Source of the DNA: Candidatus Poribacteria bacterium
Lineage (GTDB): Bacteria; Poribacteria; WGA-4E; WGA-3G
Assembly: GCA_022827885.1 (NCBI GenBank)
Contig: JAJEIP010000081.1
Span: 1-64,000, forward strand
DNA: 64,000 nt
Reading direction: 5' to 3'
The number at the start of each line of letters is the position of its first letter. The stretch's first letter is position 1. The notes beneath the pieces are model-generated. The model saw only the letters and a program-made list of their open reading frames with translations. It was not told the origin of the DNA and searched no databases. A program made the position numbers and the translations under genes. This document shows positions 1,232-63,877 of the stretch, one piece after another.

Positions 1232-2245
1232 ATGAAAAAAATAAAGAACGTCGGTTTATTCGTCAATACGACCAAAGCAAACGCGGCGGGTGTCGTCGAA
1301 GGCGTGTCTATGTGGTTAGAGGAACAGGGTACCGTTCCACTTCTATCAGACGAACAAGCCGTTGCATTAGGACACCCTCAAACGGGCATCTCCAAAACAG
1401 AGGTTGTAGAGCACGCCGATGTCCTTCTCGTCCTCGGTGGAGATGGGACGCTCCTCAGCGCAGCGCATACACCGAAGATTGAAAATGTGCCTATCTTAGC
1501 GATCAACATCGGGACCCTTGGATTTCTGACAGACGCCTCCCTCGATGAACTGTATCCGACCCTGAACGCCCTTTTGACAGGAGCTTATCGGATAGAACAT
1601 CGGATGATGTTAGAGGTCATTGTGAACGGTCTCCAAGCCGACTCTAACGAACTGCAAGGGAACATTAACACCAAAAACGCAGTCCGTAACGCGCAGGGAC
1701 GAGGGGACTTTGCCCGGACAGAGGGCGGATATAGAGAAGGGAAACCCGTCGAACACGAAAGCCAGTTGACTGAACCGCAAGGTAAGATTAAAACTTTCGC
1801 ACTCAACGATGTTGTGATTCGGCACTACACGCATCTCATTGAATTAGATGCTTACGTCGATGGAGAACTCTTTATACCGTATAACGCCGATGGGTTGATC
1901 ATCGCAACGCCGAGCGGATCGACCGGCTATTCGCTCTCCTGTGCTGGGACGATCGTTGCACCACAGGTGGAGGCGATTCTGCTGACACCCATCGCACCCC
2001 ATAGCTTGACAGTGCGTCCTTTCATCGCCGACGGCGCCGCGGAAATAACCGTCAAAATGCGCGCTGCATACCAGAGTGTAGATGTTTTTGTGGACGGTCA
2101 ACGCGAGACATACAGTCTCACTGCGGGTGCCGTCATCAGCGTGAAAAAAGCGGAGCGAACAATTCAACTCATCCGTTCACAGAACCATAGTTACTATAGA
2201 GCCTTACGCGAAAAGCTCATGTTGGGCGAGAGAATTTTTAAATAA
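1232..2245 (+). CDS. nadK: NAD kinase with an in-frame repeat-derived insertion
   Basis: ATP-NAD kinase, cytosolic, making NADP from NAD. The diagnostic motifs are present: LGGDGTLL (around residue 70) for nucleotide binding, NIGTLGFL (about residue 92) and the glycine-rich TPSGSTGYS (about residue 230). The protein is 337 residues, roughly 45-50 longer than typical bacterial NadK. The excess lies at about residues 135-190, between the MMLEV strand and the conserved ALNDVV strand. This stretch coincides with a copy of the dispersed repeat described separately, and its translation ends EPQGKIK. The kinase reading frame is preserved across it. The position corresponds to a loop before a core strand, so activity is plausible. 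The gene follows DUF368/PopT after 6 bases. Confidence 0.93.
   Translation: MKKIKNVGLFVNTTKANAAGVVEGVSMWLEEQGTVPLLSDEQAVALGHPQTGISKTEVVEHADVLLVLGGDGTLLSAAHTPKIENVPILAINIGTLGFLTDASLDELYPTLNALLTGAYRIEHRMMLEVIVNGLQADSNELQGNINTKNAVRNAQGRGDFARTEGGYREGKPVEHESQLTEPQGKIKTFALNDVVIRHYTHLIELDAYVDGELFIPYNADGLIIATPSGSTGYSLSCAGTIVAPQVEAILLTPIAPHSLTVRPFIADGAAEITVKMRAAYQSVDVFVDGQRETYSLTAGAVISVKKAERTIQLIRSQNHSYYRALREKLMLGERIFK
1678..1793 (+). repeat. Dispersed leader-type repeat, copy inside nadK
   Basis: This stretch starts CGCAGTCCGTAAC, contains GAGGGCGGATATAGAGAAGG and GAAACCC, and ends TTGACTGAACCGCAAGG followed by TAAGATTAAAA. It matches copies at 4469-4559, 23422-23515, 47483-47568 and 63787-63877. 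Here the element lies within an open reading frame and is translated as ...LTEPQGKIK. It is longer than the others because of about 20 extra bases after CCGTAAC. Confidence 0.8.
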
Positions 2246-4356: not shown

Positions 4357-4468
4357 CTTTTAATTCATGGGCCCCTGAGCGGCTTACCACGGCATTTCCG
4401 GCAGGCCTCCCAAAGACAGGACGTTTGCCAAAGATGCCCAACCGCGCACAAGCACTCATTAAAAAAGT

Positions 4469-4559
4469 GCGCAGCTTGGAATGTAGTGGAAAGCGACTCT
4501 ACGGAGTAGAATGTCAATAGCCAAACCAATCGGACCGAACCGCAAGGAACATTTAAAAA
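4469..4559 (+). repeat. Dispersed leader-type repeat, full copy upstream of the indolepyruvate oxidoreductase gene
   Basis: Starts GCGCAGCTTGGAATGTAGTG and ends CGGACCGAACCGCAAGG then AACATTTAAAA, immediately before the ATG at 4560. The AAGGA inside the element is the only good ribosome-binding site for that gene, 10 bases from the start. The closest relative is the copy at 63787-63877. Confidence 0.8.
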
Positions 4560-7500
4560 ATGGACGACAGGTTTACACAAGCCAGTGGAACACATGTCTA
4601 TACCGGATGCGAGTTATTAGTTAAGGGTGCCTTAGAGAGCGGTGTTAGCCTCCTCACGGGTTACCCCGGCTCCCCACTCGCCGAAGTATTTGACACTATT
4701 GAACGCAATGCTGAATTGTTGAAAACCAACGGCATCGTCGCGCAGATAGCCAACAACGAGGCATTGAGTATCGCGCGCCTCAACGGTTCGCAGATGGCGG
4801 ATGTCCGCGCGATTGCATTTATGAAGAGTGTTGGCTTTCATGTCGCCGCTGATTCACTGGCGATCAGTAACCTTGCAGGAACAACCGGGGGTGCCGTTGT
4901 TGTGGTCGGTGACGATACATGGTCCCATAGCACACAGGTCCCCGCTGATTCCCGATTCTTGGCACGGCATGTCCAAACACCTCTGATTGAACCTGCGACA
5001 TTTCAGGAACTTAAGGACTGGGTTCACTGCGCCTTCCAAATTTCCGCGGCATCGAACCTCTACGTCTGCTACTTAACTACCGAAAACCAGGCAAGCGGCG
5101 GGGGCGCTGTAGAACTCCATCCTAACATTTATCCCGAAATTAGCGACTTGAAGCAGATCAACTTGGATACCCAACACATCGATGCCGATAAACGGGTCAT
5201 TCTCCCGCCACATACTGCACAGATTGAAGTGGAGGCATTGAGAGAGCGGATCCCCACCGCCCTTGAGACAGCCCGGAACCTCGGACTTAACACAATCCAG
5301 TTCATAGAAGAAACGCCAAATCGGAAGAAACACCGCCTCGGGTTTGTCAGTGCGGGTTTGGCTTATAGTTGCCTGCTCCATGCCCTCGGGGAACTCGGGT
5401 TGGACGGTGAAATCCCGATTCTCAAACTCGGTATGACGCATCCTATTGACAAGGACCTCATCAGAGAATTCGCTGCAGAGGTCGAGGAAATCTACGTGGT
5501 TGAGGAAAAACGTCCGCTTTTAGAGAACGAAATAAAAGCATTCATCACGCAAGGATATCAGAATGGCGATATGGATCGATATGTAAACGTGTGGGGCAAA
5601 CAATTTCCCAACGGCTTGGCAGGAATTCCGGTAACTTCTGGTTTAGATACCTCTATCCTTATTCAAAAACTTATCCCACTTCTCAAACATCTCTTCGGTA
5701 ATGGCAGTCGGCAATCAGCAGCCAGCAAGAGAGGAATCGGGGTTACAAACCCCTCCCACAACCTCTTTACCGAAAGCCATACAGCAACCTATCACGATCC
5801 AAAAATCGATCTGGAACATATCTCAGGTGAGGAAACACTCCAACAACAGGTCTCCGCCCAGCACATCGACATTCCCCAGCGGACCCCTACCTTTTGTCCG
5901 GGCTGTCCGCATCGTGATTCTTCGAGCGTCTTCCTTGAAATTACGAAACAATTCATGGATGCGGATTATATGAAGAAACATCATGATTTAGGACCGGTTG
6001 ATCTCGTTTTTCATGGGGATATCGGTTGCTATTCAATGCTGAAATATGAACCGTTTCCACGTTTAATGCACAATCTTTCCGCGATGGCATTGGGTGGCGG
6101 TGCGGGGGCTGGTATTGACCCATTTATCACAAACAAGCAGATCGTTTTCATGGGGGATTCGACCTTTTTCCACGGCGGGATGGCAGCGATTTCGGATTCA
6201 ATCAAAAACAACCAAGACATCGCCTACATTATTTTAGACAATCAGACAACAGCGATGACGGGACATCAACCGACACCCGCGGGTGAGCTTGACCTCCTCG
6301 GCAATCCGACGTTCGCACAAGATATTGAGCAAGTCGCACAAGGACTCGTGGGTAATTCCGATATAGAAATCGTGCGGACCAACCCGGAAGACAGGGTGAA
6401 CTATAAAAAACATCTGGAGAAAACCATTCTGAAATCGGGTGTCAAAATTATCATCGCCGATAAGGAGTGTGCGATTACCTATCAGCGTCGCATCCGACGC
6501 GAACAACGGCAAACAGTCGCTAAAGATGGTTTTCTTAAATACGAAAAGCATATTAATATAACGCCTGAGGTCTGTGAGTTTTGTCGAGAATGTACCACTG
6601 CCACGGGATGTCCGGGATTAAAAATAGTCGATACCGATTACGGTGAGAAAATCGCCATCGATCAGTCAAATTGTGTTTCCGATGGTGCTTGCGCCCGAAT
6701 TAAATACGCATGTCCAGCGTTTGAAGAGGTTATTGTCACCCGCAAATGCCCGCCTCAAGATCAAACAACAACCTCCAGAAATCGTGCACTCTTGAGTGAT
6801 GAACCTTTACCACCGCCCCCCCTAGGGACATTCGAGCAGCGGTGGAACATGTACGCCGCCGGTGTCGGGGGCATGGGGATTGGCACGATTTCAAAAGTCC
6901 TCGTGGTTGCCGGTTATCTTCAGGGCTACGACGTGACGTTTTGCGATAGGAAAGGATTGGCAATCCGCAATGGCGGTGTTTACACCCACATCACATATAT
7001 GCAACCGGGTGTTCACGCCTCGCCAATGATTCCTTATGGTAAGGCGGATCTTCTATTAGGGCTTGATATTTTAGAAGCCGTCCGGGGTATCACTGCGCAA
7101 TCGCTCTTCCGCATCGCGTCATCACATCGAACCACTGCTGTCGTGAATACAGCGAAAACTGAAACGATAACCACGCTCATCGGTAAAGACCATTTTGATC
7201 CAGAGACCCTTGAAGCGTCCCTCCAGACCTATACGAATGCGGACACATATTTTGGGACGGATCTATTTACAGTTTCTGAGCAATTGTTCGGGAGCAAACT
7301 CTACGCGAACATGATGCTTCTGGGGACAGCCTTCCAACGGCAAATGATACCTCTGGAATTGGAACCCCTCCAATTGGCACTTAAGCAGATGGTCCCGCAC
7401 GCCGATTTGGATACCAATATGAAAGCGTTCACCGTTGGACGCCGTCTTGCCTTAGAAAACATCGAATCCCTTGCGGATACACATTCAGAAAAGTATCCGC

Positions 7501-8231
7501 TGGGAACTTATGCCGAAATGCTCTCCGAAAAACAACGGATCCTGGAAAAAAAACGCAATGGGAAACGTTTAACGCGAGAATACGTAACACTTGTTAAAAA
7601 TACCATTGAAACGCTTAATCTCGATTCAGACAGCATCCACCGGATCTTGGCACTCTATATCTATGATTTGATCCAGTTCGAGGATATTAACTACGCGCGG
7701 ATATACGTTGAAAAGATTAAACAGGTCTATGCCCACGACTCAGAAGTATACAACTATCGCGCGACAAAAGCCGCGGTTCGCTATCTCCACAAGGTGATGC
7801 TCATCAAGGACGAGGTCTATGTCGCACATCTGCTAACGAGCGAAGAAAAATTGCAGCGGGATAAGGAATTGTATCAGGTTGACCCAGCAAACGGTGATAG
7901 TATTAAATACGTCCATCTCAATCGTCCACATTTCACCGTGATGGGGCTTGATTTTGAAGGGGATATTGACACACGCAATTGGCAATTGCATCTGATGAAA
8001 CGGATGAAGTTCTTAAGACGCTGGCTTCCAGAATGGCACGCCAAGGAAAAAGCGTTTCGAGAATGGTATATCACCCGCGTAATTGACACCTTCTCACCGA
8101 CTGACGCTGAGACGTATGAAAAGCATCTCCAAGCGTTAGAATGTGTGGAGGAAGTTCGTGGCTATCGAGACATTCGCTATCCGAAAATGGAAACGGCAAA
8201 ACAGAAAGTTGAAGGCCTACTTGAAGAATGA
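4560..8231 (+). CDS. Single-chain indolepyruvate ferredoxin oxidoreductase (alpha-beta fusion with DUF6537)
   Basis: A 1223-residue cytosolic enzyme of the 2-oxoacid:ferredoxin oxidoreductase superfamily, predicted to decarboxylate aryl pyruvates to acyl-CoA with thiamine diphosphate. Domain order: pyrimidine-binding domain (1-370; LTGYPGSP, NNEALS), a linker, a TPP-binding domain (about 440-640; FCPGCPHRDSS, GDIGCYSM, GDSTFFHGG), a Cys-rich iron-sulfur-like segment (about 675-725, CEFCRECTTATGCPG), a gamma domain (about 760-930; GVGGMGIGT) and a C-terminal DUF6537 region. The arrangement and length match the long single-chain form. The linker at residues 380-410 contains a copy of the GGGGTTACAAACCCC repeat read as GVTNPSH. 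The gene overlaps aroE by 4 bases, linking it to aromatic amino-acid metabolism. Confidence 0.9.
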   Translation: MDDRFTQASGTHVYTGCELLVKGALESGVSLLTGYPGSPLAEVFDTIERNAELLKTNGIVAQIANNEALSIARLNGSQMADVRAIAFMKSVGFHVAADSLAISNLAGTTGGAVVVVGDDTWSHSTQVPADSRFLARHVQTPLIEPATFQELKDWVHCAFQISAASNLYVCYLTTENQASGGGAVELHPNIYPEISDLKQINLDTQHIDADKRVILPPHTAQIEVEALRERIPTALETARNLGLNTIQFIEETPNRKKHRLGFVSAGLAYSCLLHALGELGLDGEIPILKLGMTHPIDKDLIREFAAEVEEIYVVEEKRPLLENEIKAFITQGYQNGDMDRYVNVWGKQFPNGLAGIPVTSGLDTSILIQKLIPLLKHLFGNGSRQSAASKRGIGVTNPSHNLFTESHTATYHDPKIDLEHISGEETLQQQVSAQHIDIPQRTPTFCPGCPHRDSSSVFLEITKQFMDADYMKKHHDLGPVDLVFHGDIGCYSMLKYEPFPRLMHNLSAMALGGGAGAGIDPFITNKQIVFMGDSTFFHGGMAAISDSIKNNQDIAYIILDNQTTAMTGHQPTPAGELDLLGNPTFAQDIEQVAQGLVGNSDIEIVRTNPEDRVNYKKHLEKTILKSGVKIIIADKECAITYQRRIRREQRQTVAKDGFLKYEKHINITPEVCEFCRECTTATGCPGLKIVDTDYGEKIAIDQSNCVSDGACARIKYACPAFEEVIVTRKCPPQDQTTTSRNRALLSDEPLPPPPLGTFEQRWNMYAAGVGGMGIGTISKVLVVAGYLQGYDVTFCDRKGLAIRNGGVYTHITYMQPGVHASPMIPYGKADLLLGLDILEAVRGITAQSLFRIASSHRTTAVVNTAKTETITTLIGKDHFDPETLEASLQTYTNADTYFGTDLFTVSEQLFGSKLYANMMLLGTAFQRQMIPLELEPLQLALKQMVPHADLDTNMKAFTVGRRLALENIESLADTHSEKYPLGTYAEMLSEKQRILEKKRNGKRLTREYVTLVKNTIETLNLDSDSIHRILALYIYDLIQFEDINYARIYVEKIKQVYAHDSEVYNYRATKAAVRYLHKVMLIKDEVYVAHLLTSEEKLQRDKELYQVDPANGDSIKYVHLNRPHFTVMGLDFEGDIDTRNWQLHLMKRMKFLRRWLPEWHAKEKAFREWYITRVIDTFSPTDAETYEKHLQALECVEEVRGYRDIRYPKMETAKQKVEGLLEE
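5739..5759 (+). repeat. GGGGTTACAAACCCC palindromic repeat inside a coding region
   Basis: The palindrome GGGGTT-ACA-AACCCC followed by TCCCAC recurs at 34305-34325 and 34344-34363 in intergenic DNA, all in the same orientation. Here it lies in frame within the linker of the oxidoreductase, between the pyrimidine-binding and TPP-binding domains, where extra residues should be tolerated. Confidence 0.7.
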
Positions 8232-9115
8232 AATCCCAGACGCACGTCATCGAACCGCAAGGCAGAATAAAAAAATTGACCGGACATACGCGTATTGTCG
8301 GTGTTATTGGTGATCCGGTTGCACACAGTCGTTCACCACAAATGCACAATGCCGCTTTTGCGAAAGCAGGTCTCGATTATGTATATGTCCCGTTTCATGT
8401 CCGCCCCGATGATTTGGCAGCTGCGATTGCTGGGTTTAAAGCGATTAATGTCGTCGGCATTAACGTAACGCTCCCCCACAAACAAGCCGTCATCCCGTTC
8501 CTCACATCAATCTCTCGGGAAGCGGAACTCATCGGTGCTGTGAACACACTGACGTTTGTTGAAGGGGACATACATGGCGATAATACAGATGCCCCCGGTG
8601 TCTTACAAGCGTTAGAAGAGGACGAAAACACGTCTGGGACGCCGGTAGGCGAGAATGTCGTGGTTTTAGGAGCAGGCGGTGCTGCGAGGGCTGTCGTTGT
8701 TGCGTTAGCACTTAGAGGCGTCGCCGCAATTACAATCGCCAACCGCACGGTGGAAAAAGCGGTTTCTTTAGCAACAGAGATGGATCAGAAGACAGGGGTT
8801 TCCATGCAAGGAATGGGGCTCACAGATGAACGATTGCCGCTCTCTGTTCGGGAGAGCAAACTCCTCGTCAACACTGCAACGATAAGCATGGATGTAACAC
8901 AACCGTTACTGATTTCCGCTGACTGGCTTCAACCGAATACGATTGTTTATGACATTGTGTATACGCCGCCGGTAACACCTTTGATGCAAGCCGCGACCGA
9001 GCGCGGCTGTCAAACGCTCGGCGGTATTGGGATGTTAGTTCATCAGGGGGCTATCGCTTTTGAGAAATGGACGGGTGTTGCGCCGTGCACTGAGACAATG
9101 CGTCAAGCCCTATAG
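8228..9115 (+). CDS. aroE: Shikimate dehydrogenase (NADP+)
   Basis: Reduces 3-dehydroshikimate to shikimate. Substrate and catalytic residues are visible in SRSPQMHN (about residue 37), NVTLPHKQA (Lys about 85) and DNTDAPG (Asp about 121). The NADP-binding motif GAGGAARAV follows at about 147, and the C-terminus has GMLVHQGA. Two starts compete. ATG 8228 overlaps the previous stop (ATGA) and gives 295 residues. TTG 8276 sits directly behind a copy of the dispersed repeat's SD module (CCGCAAGG...AATAAAAAAA) and gives about 279 residues beginning near the conserved VIGDP strand. The extra residues in the longer form are repeat-derived (EPQGRIKK). I keep the coupled ATG as the coordinate and regard TTG as about equally likely. 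Confidence 0.92.
   Translation: MKSQTHVIEPQGRIKKLTGHTRIVGVIGDPVAHSRSPQMHNAAFAKAGLDYVYVPFHVRPDDLAAAIAGFKAINVVGINVTLPHKQAVIPFLTSISREAELIGAVNTLTFVEGDIHGDNTDAPGVLQALEEDENTSGTPVGENVVVLGAGGAARAVVVALALRGVAAITIANRTVEKAVSLATEMDQKTGVSMQGMGLTDERLPLSVRESKLLVNTATISMDVTQPLLISADWLQPNTIVYDIVYTPPVTPLMQAATERGCQTLGGIGMLVHQGAIAFEKWTGVAPCTETMRQAL
8253..8275 (+). repeat. Short copy of the dispersed SD module at the start of aroE
   Basis: ACCGCAAGGCAGAATAAAAA here matches the 3' end of the leader repeat and is followed exactly at the expected place by TTG (8276), an alternative in-frame start of aroE. The upstream part of the element is not evident. Confidence 0.6.
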
Positions 9116-9628: not shown

Positions 9629-10993
9629 CTAACGCAGCAACAGCACAGCGAGAATGCCAAGTACCGGTAGCAAGAGGATTAAAACTTTGACTTCAACCAA
9701 ATAATTTTTGTAACGTTGAACCGCAGAATTATGCTCTATCCACTGGTTGATGAATTCAACGCGTCGATAGATGGACGGGTGGGTATTGAAGATTTCAAAG
9801 AAACGCCGAATTGACTTCGGCACTGAATTCAGGACTGCGAGTTTCACCAAGGCTTCTTTGAATGCTTCCGGTTTCTGTGTAAGTTGAACCGCATACAGGT
9901 CGGCTTGATGTTCGCACCGTCTTGACAAATACCGGAAGATAACTATGAAATAAACGATTAGAAACGCCAGCGAACACAAGGTCGATACCACTGACAAAAG
10001 GGACTGCGATTCTGCCAGGTATGTTAACAGCGGTTCTTCAACAAGCACATAGAAAAAGGGATAATTCAAGAGATAGAAGAGTGAAAACAGCATATACGTT
10101 GGAATGTGCCGATAGCGGATATGTCCAAGTTCATGAGCGACAACGGTTTCAATTTCTTCATCTGTGAAGTATTCGAGAAGCGCGTCTGTGAGAAAAATGC
10201 GACGATTCCACGGAAGCGTTCCCGCCACAGCTGCGTTGGCAATTAACAGCGAACCGGTTTGCCATACGACAACCTCCCGGTATTTTATACCGCTCTGCCT
10301 CGTCAAACGATCCAACTTCTCCTTTAGCACTGAATCCCCCGCGAGGGGTTCTGTTTTCCATAGAAATTGCATCAATAATGGGGCGAAGATATACGCAGAA
10401 ATAATTACCGGTAGGATCAGCCCGATTAGAATATACGGATGCTCAACAATGAATACCTTTGCTGCGTATGGAAGCCAGTGAATCGCGTCCATCATCACCA
10501 AATACAGGAACATCGGCAACAGCGGGAAAAGCAGAAACTTGAATTGTAGACTGAGAATCTCTCTGTAATGACCGGATTGTAGCCGATTCACCTGATAAAA
10601 CGCAAGTCGGATACATATCAGTCCGATCAGTAGGGGCAGCAAGGCGAGGGTCTGGCGCAGATGTGCCATCGGAAAGAAGGCGAAGTATTTGTCAATCAGC
10701 ATCGGCAGATTCAACAGATATAGATTGCAGAGGTACGCCGCTAAACTGAGGCACTCGAAAACAATCATGAAGCGGCGCAGCCGATAGAGTGTTGGTAGGT
10801 TCTCCTCTTCGTGCGCGGGAAAGGTTCTTGCGACATAGGCTGTCACAAAACATGTGATAAGAATAGGGAACCCTGTCAAGACAATTGTCCAGAGGATGAC
10901 CTGCATATCACTGATATTCATGCTTGTTTGCGGTGGCTCAAACGAAAAAAGGAAGAGGAGCCCGGCAATTAAGATGATACTTATCTGTCCCAC
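9629..10993 (-). CDS. M48-family membrane metallopeptidase
   Basis: A zinc peptidase of the Ste24/HtpX type embedded in the inner membrane. The catalytic motif VVAHELGHIRYRH (HExxH) is followed about 80 residues later by SRRCEHQADLYA, which supplies the third zinc ligand. Several hydrophobic segments precede and follow the site, and the last residues are a hydrophobic helix. The longest frame starts at ATG 11020, but its first residues (FNRKEKLK) are encoded by the dispersed SD module. The GTG at 10993 directly after GGAAAAATTAAAA is at the position used by other genes carrying this module, so I chose it (454 residues). The gene converges on zapA. Confidence 0.88.
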   Translation of the reverse strand: MGQISIILIAGLLFLFSFEPPQTSMNISDMQVILWTIVLTGFPILITCFVTAYVARTFPAHEEENLPTLYRLRRFMIVFECLSLAAYLCNLYLLNLPMLIDKYFAFFPMAHLRQTLALLPLLIGLICIRLAFYQVNRLQSGHYREILSLQFKFLLFPLLPMFLYLVMMDAIHWLPYAAKVFIVEHPYILIGLILPVIISAYIFAPLLMQFLWKTEPLAGDSVLKEKLDRLTRQSGIKYREVVVWQTGSLLIANAAVAGTLPWNRRIFLTDALLEYFTDEEIETVVAHELGHIRYRHIPTYMLFSLFYLLNYPFFYVLVEEPLLTYLAESQSLLSVVSTLCSLAFLIVYFIVIFRYLSRRCEHQADLYAVQLTQKPEAFKEALVKLAVLNSVPKSIRRFFEIFNTHPSIYRRVEFINQWIEHNSAVQRYKNYLVEVKVLILLLPVLGILAVLLLR

Positions 10994-11020
10994 TTTTAAT
11001 TTTTCCTTGCGGTTAAACAA
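10994..11020 (-). repeat. Dispersed SD module upstream of the M48 peptidase
   Basis: The reverse strand reads AACCGCAAGGAAAAATTAAA and then AGTG, the 3' end of the leader repeat, placing AAGGA 10 bases before the GTG at 10993. A degraded upstream part may be present to about 11100 (GCGTAGCC ... GGCGGATTTGAGAAAAAC). Confidence 0.6.
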
Positions 11021-11220
11021 CGTGATATTGGACTATAACGTGTTTTTCTCAAATCCGCCTGCGTGTTTTTGCTGGGGCATTTCTGCGTATTGTTGCAGGC
11101 TACGCACTTTGGACTCATCTTGCGAATGGAATCTCTGGCGAGTCATAGCATTTTAACGTATCTCACATCAAAAATCAAGTGCATTTTAAAGCCCTGCTCC
11201 AATCGCCTCAGGGTTTGCGA

Positions 11221-19790: not shown

Positions 19791-20471
19791 ATGCAAGCGA
19801 TTATTCTGTGCGGCGGTCTCGCGACGCGGCTCGGTGAGACAGCGAAAACACTTCCGAAGATTCTGCTGGAGATCGCTGGGAAAACAGTATTGGAATGGCA
19901 AATCCAATTGCTGAGAGATGTAGGTGTCACTTCGGTCATCCTGGCGTCGGGACATCTCCACGATGTGCTTTATGGGCGCGTAGGAGACGCTTACGCTGGG
20001 ATGTGCATCCGTTATGCCAAAGAGGAAAAGCGGCTCGGCACTGGCGGCGCGATCCAGAATGCGATGCAGCAGATCGATACATCGCCCTTTTTTGTCCTAA
20101 ACGGCGATATTCTGATCGCTAACTTTTCACTGCGGGAAATGTTGGTTCGATTCGAGCAAGGAATGGCAGGCATGCTGTTAAGTGTGCATGTCCCGGACGT
20201 CCGTCCCTACGGTGAAATTGTATCGGACGGTGAGGGAAAAATTCAGGCGTTTCGTGAGAAACAATCTACCCGTCGCGCTGGGTATATCAACAGTGGGGTG
20301 TACCTCTTCGATCAAAGCATTGCTGAGGCGTTTCCGAGCGACCGAGAAAACTTTTCTATGGAACGAGACGTTTTTCCTTATGTTTCCAGTCTCTACGCTT
20401 TAGAAACGGATGCCGACTGGATCGATATCGGTGTTCCAGAGCGATTGGCTCACGCCCGCGCACATTTTTAA
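19791..20471 (+). CDS. Sugar-1-phosphate nucleotidyltransferase
   Basis: A 226-residue GT-A fold enzyme that joins a nucleotide to a sugar 1-phosphate. The P-loop-like start MQAIILCGGLATRLGETAKT, then LPK, the RLGTGGAIQNA motif (about residue 82) and FFVLNGDIL (Mg site, about 103) are present, as is YINSGVYLF. Its short form lacks the left-handed helix domain, as in mannose-1-phosphate or heptose-1-phosphate enzymes (HddC/RmlA-like). The donor cannot be set. The start follows GGTAAGGTAAATTAAAAAC, a relative of the SD module. The stop abuts an inverted copy of that module. Confidence 0.85.
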   Translation: MQAIILCGGLATRLGETAKTLPKILLEIAGKTVLEWQIQLLRDVGVTSVILASGHLHDVLYGRVGDAYAGMCIRYAKEEKRLGTGGAIQNAMQQIDTSPFFVLNGDILIANFSLREMLVRFEQGMAGMLLSVHVPDVRPYGEIVSDGEGKIQAFREKQSTRRAGYINSGVYLFDQSIAEAFPSDRENFSMERDVFPYVSSLYALETDADWIDIGVPERLAHARAHF

Positions 20472-20571
20472 TTTTCTAATTTCCTTGGGGTTCGATCAGG
20501 TGAGTTTAGCACTTTGACGTTTCTTTCCGTAGGCCCGGTTTCTGTACGGGTTGGGTGATCCAACCCCTACG
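20472..20571 (-). repeat. Inverted SD module plus hairpin downstream of the nucleotidyltransferase gene
   Basis: The reverse strand reads CGAACCCCAAGGAAATTAGA then AAATTAAAAA and meets the stop codon of the plus-strand gene; the first G of AACCGCAAGG has changed. The same stretch has the hairpin GGGTTGG-GTGAT-CCAACCC (20548-20566) within CGTAGG/CCTACG. The rest of the gap to 20632 has no gene. Confidence 0.55.
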
Positions 20572-20632
20572 CGTTCCAAGCTACGTGAGCTTTAACCCAT
20601 ATCCCTCTTTACTGACAATTTTTTGTCGACTG

Positions 20633-23200: not shown

Positions 23201-23369
23201 ATACATATCCTGAGTTGTTACAGATGCAATGTAGGCACAACCTGTAGGTCCCCCATATTGCGACATTTATTATAACACAGAAGCGTTATTTACAAAAGTC
23301 TATAATCAACAGAGATTTTAAAGTTGACATATTGAAGAAAGTGTGATAATTTATTGGAAATATTCGCAG

Positions 23370-25451
23370 ATGACAGTCGGGCGTTTGTTACGTATCCATG
23401 TGCAAACTCCTAATCACTGGCGCGCAGCCCGTAACGAAGTGGAGGGCGGTTTTACGGAAGGGAAACCCTTCATTCATCAAACCCATCTCAACGAACCGCA
23501 AGGAATAATTAAAAATTCGCTAACACACTCACGAATTCCCGCCCACGGTGTCACACTCAAATCTATTCTTATTGCTGTTATTCTCATACCGATTAACTGC
23601 TACTGGGTTATTGAGATGGAGGTTATTCGGTATTCAGGTCATCCTGTGACGATTTCCCTCTTTTTTAATGTGATCTTCAGTCTATTCCTGATTATCGGCA
23701 TGAACGCCGTGTTGCGCCGTTTCATCCCCAGTTTAGCATTGGCACAAAGCGAGTTAGTCATTGTTTACCTAATGCTTTCCATTGCTTCGGGAATTACTGG
23801 CCACGATATGCTTGAGATTTTGGTCCCGATGTTAGGGCACGCCTTCCGTTTTGCGACCCCGGAAAACGAATGGCAACAGTTGTTTGTCCCGTTCCTGCCA
23901 AAGTGGCTTACCGTTAGCGACACGCCCCTTTTACACGGCTATTATGAGGGTGAACTCCCTCTCTACACAGTTGAAACATTGCTTGGCTGGGCAACGCCGG
24001 TCCTCTGGTGGACTGCCTTTATTACTGTGTTGATTTTCGGTATGCTTTGCATCAATATAATTGTTCGTAAACAGTGGATCGAACACGAGAAATTAAGTTA
24101 TCCGATCATCCAACTCCCGCTCCAATTGACAGAAACACCACAGAATCGTCTCTTTCAGAATAAATTGATGTGGCTCGGTTTTGGAATTGCAGGTGCGCTT
24201 GCTTTTTGGAATGGTGTCAACTTTCTGTACCCGATCCTACCTGAACTACGGACCCGTGTGCGAAGTTTCCAAATTTTTACGGAGAGTCCGTGGAATGCTA
24301 TGGGAAGCATCCCGTTTTCACTGTATCCGTTCGCGATCGGACTCGGTTTCTTTATTCCTCTGGATCTCTCGTTCTCGTGTTGGTTCTTCTTCTGGTATTG
24401 GCGCTTCATGCGTGTCCTTGGTGCTGCCCTCGGCTTACGGAGCCTACCTCGCTTTCCGTACATGAACGAGCAGGCATCAGGTGGCTATCTCGCTTTGTGC
24501 GCTTTAGCTATCTGGGCAAGTCGCAGACACCTTTTAGACGTTGCCAAAACAGTTTTTGGATTTGGAAAGATTGCGGAGGACCCGCGGCAAGAACCGATGT
24601 CATATCGCGGCGCGACGATTGGTCTCATCGCAGTAATGGCATTCCTTGTGCTTTTTTGCTACTATGGGGGTGCTGAAATTTGGGTGATGTTTGCATTCTT
24701 CGTTATTTATTATATGATCTCCATTGCTATTACGCGGATGCGCGCCGAATTAGGCACGCCTGTGCATGATCTGCACTACTCCGGTCCTGATGAGATTCTG
24801 AGTCGGACTGTCGGAACAAGGCGGTTGGGGAGAGACAACCTCATTATGTTTTCGATGTTTTGGTTTATCAATCGTGCGCATCGCAGCCATCCAATGCCGC
24901 ACCAGCTCGAAGGTTTCAAGATCATGGAACGGACAAACATGACGATGAACCGTATCATTTTCGCCTTGACCCTCGCGACCGTTTTAGGATCGTTAGCAGG
25001 ATTTTGGGCGTTAATCGACCGCGGGTATCGCCTCGGCATGGAGGTACGGGCCTATTGGCCCTCTCTAAGTGCTTTCGGCATAGAGCCGTATCGTCGCCTC
25101 GCGGGATGGTTGCAAGCCCCAGAAGAGACACTCATCCCTGAAAGCGGATTTATGGGGCTGGGGTTCCTCTTAACAACAGTGCTAATGTTCTTTCGGATGC
25201 GATTTGTATGGTGGCCCTTTCATCCCGCAGGTTTCGCTATCTCTACGAGTTGGGGTATGAATGTTACGTGGAGCTGCCTTTTCATGAGTTGGTTAATCAA
25301 ATGGCTTATTCTTCAGTACGGCGGTGTCGTTCGGCATCGCAAGATAGCGCCCTTTTTCTTAGGGTTAATTTTGGGGGAGTTTACGGTCGGGAGTCTCTGG
25401 ACAATCTTAGGGATTATCGCCGGCATTCCGACTTACGGGTTTTGGGTGTAG
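23370..25451 (+). CDS. DUF6785-type polytopic membrane protein
   Basis: A large integral membrane protein, about 690 residues, with around 14 hydrophobic segments. The blocks LKSILIAVILIPINCYWV, ISLFFNVIFSLFLI and ATPENEWQQLFVPFLPKWL match the DUF6785/DUF6784 proteins of Poribacteria and Planctomycetes as I remember them; the function of that family is unknown, though the topology suggests transport. The start is uncertain: residues before about 55 are encoded by the dispersed repeat (ending EPQGIIK), and no ATG lies between the repeat and the first conserved helix. ATG 23370 is the first in-frame ATG; a GTG lies at 23343. It faces the pseudo-ATPase gene convergently. Confidence 0.7.
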   Translation: MTVGRLLRIHVQTPNHWRAARNEVEGGFTEGKPFIHQTHLNEPQGIIKNSLTHSRIPAHGVTLKSILIAVILIPINCYWVIEMEVIRYSGHPVTISLFFNVIFSLFLIIGMNAVLRRFIPSLALAQSELVIVYLMLSIASGITGHDMLEILVPMLGHAFRFATPENEWQQLFVPFLPKWLTVSDTPLLHGYYEGELPLYTVETLLGWATPVLWWTAFITVLIFGMLCINIIVRKQWIEHEKLSYPIIQLPLQLTETPQNRLFQNKLMWLGFGIAGALAFWNGVNFLYPILPELRTRVRSFQIFTESPWNAMGSIPFSLYPFAIGLGFFIPLDLSFSCWFFFWYWRFMRVLGAALGLRSLPRFPYMNEQASGGYLALCALAIWASRRHLLDVAKTVFGFGKIAEDPRQEPMSYRGATIGLIAVMAFLVLFCYYGGAEIWVMFAFFVIYYMISIAITRMRAELGTPVHDLHYSGPDEILSRTVGTRRLGRDNLIMFSMFWFINRAHRSHPMPHQLEGFKIMERTNMTMNRIIFALTLATVLGSLAGFWALIDRGYRLGMEVRAYWPSLSAFGIEPYRRLAGWLQAPEETLIPESGFMGLGFLLTTVLMFFRMRFVWWPFHPAGFAISTSWGMNVTWSCLFMSWLIKWLILQYGGVVRHRKIAPFFLGLILGEFTVGSLWTILGIIAGIPTYGFWV
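23422..23515 (+). repeat. Dispersed leader-type repeat within the DUF6785 reading frame
   Basis: Begins GCGCAGCCCGTAACGAAGTG, has GAGGGCGG, GGAAGGGAAACCC and ACCCATCTCAACGAACCGCA and ends AGGAATAATTAAAAA. The base triplet where other copies have ATG is ATT/TCG, so either a non-standard start is used or translation begins upstream and runs through the element, as the open frame permits. Confidence 0.8.
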
Positions 25452-34282: not shown

Positions 34283-34304
34283 TTTTCTAATTTTCCTTGT
34301 ATTC

Positions 34305-34363
34305 GGGGTTACAAACCCCTCCCACTTTCAGGCAATGGAATTTGGGGTTACAAACCCCTCCCA
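34305..34363 (+). repeat. Two GGGGTTACAAACCCC palindromic repeats
   Basis: Copies at 34305-34325 and 34344-34363, both followed by TCCCACTTT, 39 bases apart, between the PorV-like gene and pcm. A third copy lies within the oxidoreductase gene at 5739. Confidence 0.75.
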
Positions 34364-34365
34364 CT

Positions 34366-35028
34366 TTAATTCAGTCCACCTATCATCGGTACAAAACGGA
34401 CAGGAATAATCTCAGTGGTTTCGAGAGATAGCCCCGAATTCTCATCGGTTTGGCGTCCTTTTCGAATTAAAAGGAGATTTTGCTCGGAACCGCCGACAGG
34501 GATTACCATCCTACCGCCCGGTTTGAGTTGCTGAATGAGCCGCTCCGGCACGTTCGGAGGTGCTGCCGCGACAAGCACAGCATCATAAGGGGCGTGTTCC
34601 TGCCAACCGTAATACCCATCTCCTTTTTTGAGATGAATGTTCCGATAGTCGAGTGCCTCTAATCGCGCTTTCGCACTTTTGATAAGTCCCGGTATAATCT
34701 CAACGGAATAAACCTCTTTCGCTAATTCTGCCAGCACCGCTGTTTGATAGCCACACCCGGTTCCGATCTCAAGGACTTTTGAAGTTACGGTGAGCTCAAG
34801 CAAATCCGTCATCAATGCCACGATATAGGGTTGCGAGATCGTTTGGTCACAATCGATCGGTAACGCTCCATCCTGATACGCCACATTCAGGTACTGCGGT
34901 TTTACAAACAGGTGCCGCTCCACCTTCCGCATAACAGCGAGGACTCGCGGATTGTGGATGCCACGCGCTTCAATCTGATTTCGAACCATTTTGCGCCGTA
35001 GTGTCGTGTAGTTCTTGGCGAAGAGCAT
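34366..35028 (-). CDS. pcm: Protein-L-isoaspartate O-methyltransferase
   Basis: A 220-residue cytosolic SAM-dependent enzyme that repairs isoaspartyl residues. The family pattern is complete: MVRNQIEARGIHNPRVLAVM, ISQPYIVALMTDLL (about residue 64), the SAM loop VLEIGTGCGYQTAVLAEL (about 85), VEIIPGL and the C-terminal LVPVR-like block (IIPVRFVPMIGG). The chosen ATG is 35028; an internal ATG before VRNQIEARG is a possible shorter start. It ends near two GGGGTTACAAACCCC repeats. Confidence 0.93.
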   Translation of the reverse strand: MLFAKNYTTLRRKMVRNQIEARGIHNPRVLAVMRKVERHLFVKPQYLNVAYQDGALPIDCDQTISQPYIVALMTDLLELTVTSKVLEIGTGCGYQTAVLAELAKEVYSVEIIPGLIKSAKARLEALDYRNIHLKKGDGYYGWQEHAPYDAVLVAAAPPNVPERLIQQLKPGGRMVIPVGGSEQNLLLIRKGRQTDENSGLSLETTEIIPVRFVPMIGGLN

Positions 35029-46541: not shown

Positions 46542-46666
46542 GCGCGTAGTCCGTAACATTGTCCTGCAGGTTTCCTTTATAAGAGACCTGCGTTAGGAAG
46601 GTCGGATTCGAGCAAGGAGTATCAGAGCTCGAATGTTATCTGATTTAACCGCAAGGAAACTAAAAA
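46542..46666 (+). repeat. Dispersed leader-type repeat upstream of the PhyH gene at 46667
   Basis: It starts GCGCGTAGTCCGTAAC, has an AT/GTCCTGCAGG-centred middle (with GGTTTCCTTTATAAGAGACC) unlike the other copies, and ends TTAACCGCAAGGAAACTAAA, then AA, at the ATG. A similar middle (ATTGTCCCACAGGTTTCC) occurs at 9565-9588. Confidence 0.65.
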
Positions 46667-47482
46667 ATGGAATTCGTTCAGTTGACAGACGCACAACGTG
46701 AGGAATTTGAGGAGAACGGATACTTTATCGTGCGGTCGGTACTTGACAGCGATATGATAGATCGTTTGACTGAGGCAGGGGACCGACTCATGGAGTCGTT
46801 TGAATATAACGGCTACTATGCGCATAAGCGGGACGGTTTGGTGCAGGAGCCTGTCTTCGCAGAACTCACATCGCAGACAACAGCGATTCCCTTAATCATC
46901 CAACTGCTTGGCACAAATATCCATATCACGAATACTGCGCTCATCTACAAACATCCGCAACTGCCTGAGAAACTGGAGAGCCGTGGATGGCATCGAGATG
47001 CGGGTATATTTTTAGACCTCGGATACAAGAATTGCCCACGCGTCGGCTTGAAAGTAGGCTACTGTTTGACGGATTTCACCGTGCCGAACTCCGGTGGGAC
47101 GTTGTTTGTTCCGAAAAGCCATCTATCCGAGGAACCGTTGGGGATCCCCGAAGGCGAAATTGATCCAATTGAACCCTGCGATGAACCCGTTTTGCGTGCA
47201 GGCGATGCGTTTTTCTTTGAAAACCGAATCTATCACACCGCCGGTGTCAACTTTACGGAGAATGTCGCTAAGGTTGTTATCTACGGATACCACTATGCAT
47301 GGCTCAAGCCGGAACCTTATTTATTATATTACAATGACACACTGCAACCTGAAGCGTCGGTGATGGAGAACCTGGACGATCTTGGCAATCAATTTCTCGG
47401 TGGCGGCGGGGGTGCAGCGGCGGCGTGGGCAGCAGCACATAATTTGCAGTTTGAGGAAGTCCCACACGTCGTGACAATCTGA
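46667..47482 (+). CDS. Phytanoyl-CoA dioxygenase (PhyH) family protein
   Basis: A 271-residue Fe(II)/2-oxoglutarate oxygenase-like protein. HxD lies in SRGWHRDAGIFLD (about residue 107), the strand NSGGTLFVPKSH at about 143 and the distal His in FENRIYHTAGVNFT (about 190). The C-terminus has a Gly/Ala-rich run (GGGGGAAAAWAAAH). The first 40 residues are nearly the same as those of the incomplete gene at the right window edge. The gene is bracketed by the dispersed repeat: a direct copy before the ATG and an inverted copy directly after the stop. Confidence 0.88.
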   Translation: MEFVQLTDAQREEFEENGYFIVRSVLDSDMIDRLTEAGDRLMESFEYNGYYAHKRDGLVQEPVFAELTSQTTAIPLIIQLLGTNIHITNTALIYKHPQLPEKLESRGWHRDAGIFLDLGYKNCPRVGLKVGYCLTDFTVPNSGGTLFVPKSHLSEEPLGIPEGEIDPIEPCDEPVLRAGDAFFFENRIYHTAGVNFTENVAKVVIYGYHYAWLKPEPYLLYYNDTLQPEASVMENLDDLGNQFLGGGGGAAAAWAAAHNLQFEEVPHVVTI

Positions 47483-47568
47483 TTTTTTAATTTTCCTTGC
47501 GGTTAAGTGACGCGATCCGAACACAGAAGTTTTTCGCCATAGAGCCGCCCTCCATTTCATTACGGGCT
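47483..47568 (-). repeat. Inverted copy of the dispersed leader-type repeat abutting the PhyH stop
   Basis: The reverse strand begins AGCCCGTAATGAAATGGAGG, has GCGGCTCTATGGCG and ends CACTTAACCGCAAGGAAAAT then TAAAAAA against the stop TGA (47480-47482). No reverse-strand gene follows, so this copy cannot serve as a leader in the usual way. Confidence 0.8.
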
Positions 47569-47618
47569 TAGTTCCTGCTACTAAGAAGAGATAGGGAGCC
47601 CATTTTCACTGACTCCTG

Positions 47619-63699: not shown

Positions 63700-63786
63700 T
63701 TTTTTAATTATTGCAATAGACATCGTTTTGCATTTATGATAGCATATTTCTAAATGTCTATCAACTTTCTACAGGCTAAAGAAAAC

Positions 63787-63877
63787 GCGCAGCTCGTAAT
63801 GAAATGGAGAGCGGATATACGGAACGGAATCTTAAGGACCAAACCCAGCTGACCGAACCGCAAGGAAAATTAAAAAA
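63787..63877 (+). repeat. Dispersed leader-type repeat, full copy before the PhyH gene at the right edge
   Basis: Starts GCGCAGCTCGTAATGAAATG, has GAGAGCGGATATACGGAACG and ends CAGCTGACCGAACCGCAAGG, then AAAATTAAAAAA, directly at the ATG 63878. It is the best-preserved copy in the window and the reference for the others. Confidence 0.85.

Follow-up and report, generated by a model that had tools for sequence, protein, structure and literature searches.

A genus-specific palindromic repeat of sponge-symbiont Poribacteria, probably mobile and MITE-like, whose end is often placed against start codons

Bacterial miniature repeats are known to bring with them promoters, terminators or RNA processing sites. 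ERIC, RUP, BOX, Correia (NEMIS) and other prokaryotic MITEs are palindromic, non-coding sequences of 100-200 bp, present in hundreds of copies, variable among strains and sometimes intragenic (PMC2759123, PMC3049150, PMC10969869). Rickettsia palindromic elements (RPEs) are short palindromic selfish repeats which lie in frame within unrelated protein genes (PMC10969869; for their presence in protein genes, Ogata et al. 2000 as cited in PMC2759123).

The repeat described here belongs to sponge-symbiont Poribacteria of one genus, where it reaches up to several hundred copies per genome. It has in common with ERIC, RUP, BOX, Correia (NEMIS) and MITEs its size, palindromy, copy number, strain variability and the lack of a coding gene of its own, but the contributions reported for those repeats are promoters, IHF sites, RNA cleavage sites or sRNAs, whereas its end places a putative Shine-Dalgarno (SD) site and spacer against start codons; pneumococcal repeats, by contrast, are enriched away from gene starts. 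Like RPEs, it occurs in frame in nadK, anmK and N-terminal fusions such as ruvC, although it is found in another lineage, a main niche is the start codon, with an SD-like end, and the likeness is one of description. With REP/REPIN and their RAYTs it shares a GTAG-like tetranucleotide at the hairpin foot (GTAGCC...) and inverted pairs, but none of the four Y1_Tnp genes in its own genome is flanked by its ends. Its parts resemble known kinds, namely MITE-like intergenic repeats and RPE-like in-frame insertion. In the literature searched (open papers), no RBS-type repeat end against start codons and no paper on Poribacteria repeats was found, and the MITE review is silent on ribosome and start codon.

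The stretch analysed, hereafter the window, comprises the first 64,000 nucleotides of contig JAJEIP010000081.1, from a 5.13-Mb genome in 148 contigs (96.7% complete). Direct reading of the sequence recovered the three full copies that had been predicted at 4469-4559, 46542-46666 and 63787-63877, which end in ACCGCAAGGAACATTTAAAAA, ACCGCAAGGAAACTAAAAA and ACCGCAAGGAAAATTAAAAAA, each followed at once by ATG. The short 3' modules proposed before the M48 gene (GTG start) and the P-ATPase-like gene are likewise present, as is the weaker form before thrB, AAGGTATAATTAAAA followed by ATG. Additional copies were found in the window, one of them within the NAD kinase gene (Table 1).

Table 1. Copies and remnants of the repeat in the window
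Feature	Position	Strand	Context
Full copy (P1 GCTT/AAGC, P2, CCGCAAGG, tail)	4462..4559	+	abuts ATG 4560 of 1223-aa ORF
TTTAACCGC-subtype copy, P1 loop enlarged	46542..46666	+	abuts ATG 46667 of a presumably phytanoyl-CoA dioxygenase-like gene (by sequence)
Full CCGAACCGC-subtype copy (P1 GCTC/GAGC)	63780..63877	+	abuts ATG 63878; AAGG 12 nt upstream
Full copy in frame within NAD kinase ORF 1232-2245	1661..1797	+	read as ...KNAVRNAQGRGDFARTEGGYREGKPVEHESQLTEPQGKIK...; Pfam NAD_kinase and NAD_kinase_C flank
Full copy, 5' end of ORF 23343-25451	23403..23521	+	in the gene's frame (IKNSLTHSRIP...)
5'-truncated copy	8228..8279	+	at start of ORF 8228-9115
Full copy before M48 peptidase	10988..11119	-	GTG start 11 nt past CGCAAGG
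3' module, tail doubled AATTAAAAAATTAAAAA	28372..28420	-	before ATG 28371 (P-ATPase-like)
Full copy, not start-adjacent	47478..47588	-	points at end of convergent gene 46667-47482
Degenerate copy (CCCCAAGGAAATTAGAAAATTAAAAATG)	20464..20591	-	profile match
Solo 3' module TACCGCAAGGAATAATTAAAAA	18853..18879	-	
Minimal remnant AAGGTATAATTAAAA	29333..29350	-	directly before thrB ATG

The repeat is confirmed as real and far above chance. Genome-wide, the pattern ACCGCAAGGAAN{0,15}ATG gave 122 matches where its reversed form gave 0, and the 21-base 3' module AACCGCAAGGNANNATTAAAA (up to 2 mismatches) gave 356 where the control gave 1. In an 864-kb sample chosen without regard to the repeat, a profile search (E<=0.02) recovered 120 copies, while the best reversed-sequence control reached E=0.77. 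Minimal AAGG..ATTAAAA remnants separated from the rest of the unit numbered 15, with 7 adjacent to an ATG (control: 4 and 0). With a length of 95-220 bp, many dispersed copies and no transposase gene inside, the repeat conforms in these respects to a MITE in the strict sense.

The unit of about 95 nt consists of a hairpin (P1), a helix (P2), an invariant CC-GCAA-GG and a tail, A/T-AATNATTAAAA, and its borders are sharp: conservation starts about 11 nt before GTAGCC (CCAAA..CGTAGCC) and stops at TTAAAA. P1 has 4-6 bp (GCCC/GGGC, GCTC/GAGC, GCTT/AAGC or GCCTGC/GCAGGC), and P2 is CGG/CCG in the CCGAACCGC subtype, with both sides changed in the TTTAACCGC and TCCGC subtypes. In the invariant CCGCAAGG, two base pairs can enclose a GCAA loop; the AAGG doubles as the 3' half of this GNRA-type mini-hairpin, a feature that the original prediction did not capture. 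Among 43 diverse copies, 86% of the cells are paired, compared with 77.6% after shuffling and at most 47% when slid, and P1 and P2 hold 68 double-change cells, i.e. compensatory changes, versus 30.5 after shuffling. In a separate count on 366 profile-aligned copies, P1 is paired in 96%, with 249 double changes against at most 113 in shuffled data. The 5' 60 bases, on whose conservation the prediction had been made to depend, are thus conserved among copies both as a profile and as base pairs. This covariation is compatible with a fold acting either as RNA or as DNA, which the data do not separate. P1 as an independent repeat was rejected, as in the sample it nearly always accompanies the 3' module or an inverted CGCCTTGCG end.

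Head-to-head palindromes of about 200 bp are frequent, and many copies represent a single arm within a longer structure. Besides this first arm, the mobile unit frequently includes an inverted one, a feature that had also been missed. The two-arm form (about 180-270 bp) runs from the left end TTTTTAATNATTC.. through a reversed P1, a linker, P1 and P2 to the right end ..AATTAAAA. Two-ended units have TTTTTAAT..ATTAAAA ends and imperfect arms; many copies show one arm only. Nested inserts occur in P1 loops, one being the module GTTTTTGCTTGGGTGTTTCTGCG, found in both orientations between orthologs (L204 versus L177; window 11119-10988), and another the hairpin AAATTATGCCNTTTAAGGCATAATTT.

Many copies were found in 23 of 24 genomes of the genus by a pattern scan (counts of 0-448) and by a covariance model in agreement with it, whose counts are lower bounds (at most 105 candidates were scored). 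The exception, G022, has 0 copies by pattern and one weak model match. In 16 genomes of other genera, both methods found no copies except a single strong match in G035; this copy (L102) sits before an ATG and could be due to transfer or contamination. Exact matches among named genomes all fall in Candidatus Poribacteria MAGs. Presence and absence are polymorphic within the genus: of the copies on one contig of the window's own genome (C121), 8 are shared with the G017 counterpart and 2 are absent there, while 7 of the G017 copies are shared and 8 absent. Filled and empty alleles, with flanks 89-97% identical, often differ by a replaced stretch rather than by a clean insertion. The dispersal, the presence/absence and the genus-wide copies support the predicted copied, probably mobile and lineage-wide repeat. 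At one start-proximal site (L243, L249, L090), G017 has a forward copy, G010 an inverted one and the window's own genome none, and all adjoin the same AAAATG.

An ATG opening at least 60 codons lies 8-17 nt after CGCAAGG in 35 of 88 sampled copies (40%), in 27 of them at exactly 12 nt. Such an ATG follows 4.0% of random intergenic positions (p=7e-26) and 16.9% of intergenic AAGG outside elements (p=4e-7). Copies point at a gene start in 84 cases and at a gene end in 24 (57.5% starts expected, p=1.4e-5). All these figures are approximate since the gene calls are simple. Placement relative to genes is therefore non-random and distinct from that of arbitrary AAGG sites, as had been proposed. The suggested position of AAGGA about 10 bases upstream of ATG is right as to the SD range, not as to the figure, the modal AAGG-to-ATG spacing being 12 nt. 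The idea of a family-wide leader stands for the lineage-wide occurrence; it did not capture that more than half of all copies (about 60%) do not adjoin an ATG.

The base after AAGG is A in 136 of 204 start-adjacent copies and in 105 of 202 others (p=0.003, related copies not being independent). The G010 16S rRNA ends in GGATCACCTCCTTTCT and can pair with AAGGA; in genes lacking the element the sites are of the AGGA/GGAG type, and the distance between AAGG and ATG is mostly 7-13 nt. With this pairing and native spacing, AAGG(A) at 12 nt can act as an SD site, near the long edge of the range. Against a ribosome-binding role, AAGG alone is a weak SD with 4-5 pairs, and a spacing of 12 is at that long edge. 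Empty alleles carry a native SD that is lost in the filled allele (L117 versus L183, AAAAAGGAGACG; L158 versus L085, AAAGGGGGATAGAGAG), and the native sites AAAAAGGAGACGAAAAGATG and AAAGGGGGATAGAGAGATG are missing from filled alleles, so that in several of these the AAGG of the element is the only SD candidate. From position, pairing and the loss of native sites, we infer that the end functions as an RBS and that ribosomes use the AAGG. The prediction that the repeat spreads translation start signals is accordingly borne out for spacing and 16S pairing, while for the actual driving of translation it stays at the level of likelihood.

Copies also occur inside genes, and many are apparently translated in the gene's frame, adding N-terminal or internal segments to the protein (NadK, AnmK, ruvC), which had not been foreseen. 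NAD kinase is normally essential. ORF 1232-2245 of the window encodes this enzyme (PF01513 at 55-119, PF20143 at 196-315), and solved NAD kinases align on both sides of a gap at residues 132-189 which is the element at 1661-1797, an in-frame insert of about 50 residues. Such an insert is in frame in 9 of 29 nadK-bearing genomes of the genus (the window's own and 8 of 28 others) and missing in 20. The segment between the same flanks spans 77-116 residues with the insert, with a tandem duplicate in G042, and 38-42 residues in the six short-loop genes read among the 20. Despite variation in sequence and length, all inserts have lengths that are multiples of 3 and are free of stops, which is what one would expect of a translated and tolerated insert. 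An anmK-like gene contains a 3' fragment in a similar way. In ruvC, most relatives keep GGGAAGGGACATCAAATGCAAAACCCACCTCACCGAACCGCAAGG..AAAAAAATAATTCTTGGC and an element-internal ATG in frame with RuvC, and the RuvC Pfam match begins at residue 4 of the ORF read from the element's ATT codon; four relatives that have no element there start directly at TTG or similar. The start of ruvC is apparently, on sequence grounds, the ATG inside the element. An AUU start supplied by the element was rejected for this gene, as the codon is ATT, ATA, ACT, AGT, AGA or CCT in relatives, most of which retain an in-frame ATG at a more upstream position of the element.

Among the copies adjacent to a start, 61% and 55% have one or the other of two forward frames (out of three) open over 63 nt, a modest excess over the 37% of shuffled sequences; these frames read P-[HD]-R-T-A-R-K-I-K and L-T-E-P-Q-G-K-I-K. 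Among 30 gene-linked copies not followed by ATG, 22 continue in the ATT-AAA frame and 23 have an in-frame ATG, GTG or TTG upstream; three genes (e.g. the L092 permease) have no standard start nearby. On the minus strand of L092, where the element ends before IKRPKVVSGKIPFWRDIRVL, a 223-bp insertion splits the original start (ATGGAAAATAATTTACCTAAAGG in L241) of an intact permease-like ORF and leaves it with no ATG, GTG or TTG near the N-terminus.

The repeat is likely to be a genus-specific, non-autonomous, MITE-like mobile palindromic element, the end of which replaces the native SD site at gene starts and which can be translated within coding sequences; its copies would move by transposition. 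Each arm, a unit of about 95 nt, comprises the P1 hairpin, the P2 helix, the CC-GCAA-GG mini-hairpin and the A/T tail with the outer end AATTAAAA. Where insertion brings the outer end up to a start codon, AAGG(A) 12 nt upstream would take the place of the native SD site, and the gene would thereby survive an insertion at a position where a foreign insert would normally silence it. Where the element inserts within a coding sequence or at its beginning, the open frames would let it be translated as an added peptide. Its persistence would rest on the dual role of its end as an RBS at gene starts, and on read-through in coding sequences. The abutment could come from an insertion preference for A-rich sequence by the ATG, from selection for survivors, or from both. 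More tentatively, it may be a selfish element adapted in sequence to be harmless anywhere in the 5' part of genes, with a working RBS, correctly spaced for the adjoining start codon, as its end and open frames as its body, which has rewritten the translation starts of about 5% of genes (in the sample, 35 copies next to a start compared with 735 genes called). If true, an RBS-bringing, start-abutting and translatable element would account for the tolerance of a dense genome to hundreds of insertions at its most sensitive positions. The NadK and ruvC series are a natural experiment, with and without insert, for proteins acquiring new segments.

At 18 two-ended copies no consistent direct repeat indicative of target-site duplication was found, a departure from MITEs in the strict sense. 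Among the sampled loci, no parent transposase with the same ends was found at PF01797, PF01609 or PF13358 loci, nor between outward-facing ends. RAYT, DDE_Tnp_1 and IS630 partners were rejected, the repeat ends not having been found near their genes.

These two negative results would also fit a vertically inherited leader which spreads and is made uniform by exchange between leaders (gene conversion or homologous recombination), without transposition. Orthologous leaders often hold different subtypes while their flanking genes are 90-97% identical, and some empty alleles already have AAGG..TTAGAAAA-like sequence (L251). Such a leader is nevertheless an unlikely explanation in view of the sharp borders on both sides, the inverted orientation at the same site (L249 versus L243), the mid-gene copies (nadK, anmK), the head-to-head pairs and the very uneven copy number within the genus. 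The different subtypes in orthologous leaders indicate that recombination among copies is also at work in the mobile repeat, and such swapping suggests gene conversion too.

A cis-regulatory RNA (riboswitch, protein-binding leader or RNA thermometer), controlling a regulon through the P1/P2 fold and the SD mini-hairpin, would account for the covarying helices, the SD half-buried in the invariant CC-GCAA-GG and the 84:24 ratio toward gene starts. This is very improbable, because the downstream genes lack functional coherence (among them ruvC, coaBC-like, dioxygenases, permeases, a sugar epimerase and an M48 peptidase, assigned by motif, RuvC by Pfam), confirming the unrelated functions noted in the original prediction. 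Furthermore, sister genera do not have the repeat, more than half of the copies are not start-adjacent, some lie within coding frames, truncated copies are common, and no Rfam model matches it.

Slightly less probable still is a SINE-like retro-element copied by reverse transcription with the A/T tail as primer. Truncation affects 29 copies at the 5' end and 2 at the 3' end, although stronger conservation of the 3' end may account for part of this excess; 3' modules often occur in tandem, and the AAGG..ATTAAAA tail shows tandem growth. However, selection or the profile itself may have produced this 3' bias, the units are two-ended palindromes, and no RVT_1 gene was found in the 96.7% complete genome, on which grounds retroposition was rejected. 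Accidental likeness among ordinary SD sites is refuted: AAGG often lies near an ATG (17% of intergenic cases), but controls gave 0-1 against 122-356 matches and covariance-model matches reach E 1e-24.

Some other repeated sequences were encountered. At several contig ends (L270-L276), the assembly is interrupted by the ends of a multi-copy IS630-type element; the terminal sequence of this element, TTCTAAAATCTACCATA, bears no relation to the repeat, and at L270 one IS630-type copy lies inside a repeat. In the window, two 54-bp direct repeats at 2313-2366 and 2396-2449 are 93% identical and hold an inner palindrome (GGTATGAATGCCGTATGGCATTCC), and a dispersed 28-bp repeat, ATTCGGGGTTACAAACCCCTCCCAC, is present at 5735-5762, 34301-34328 and 34340-34367.
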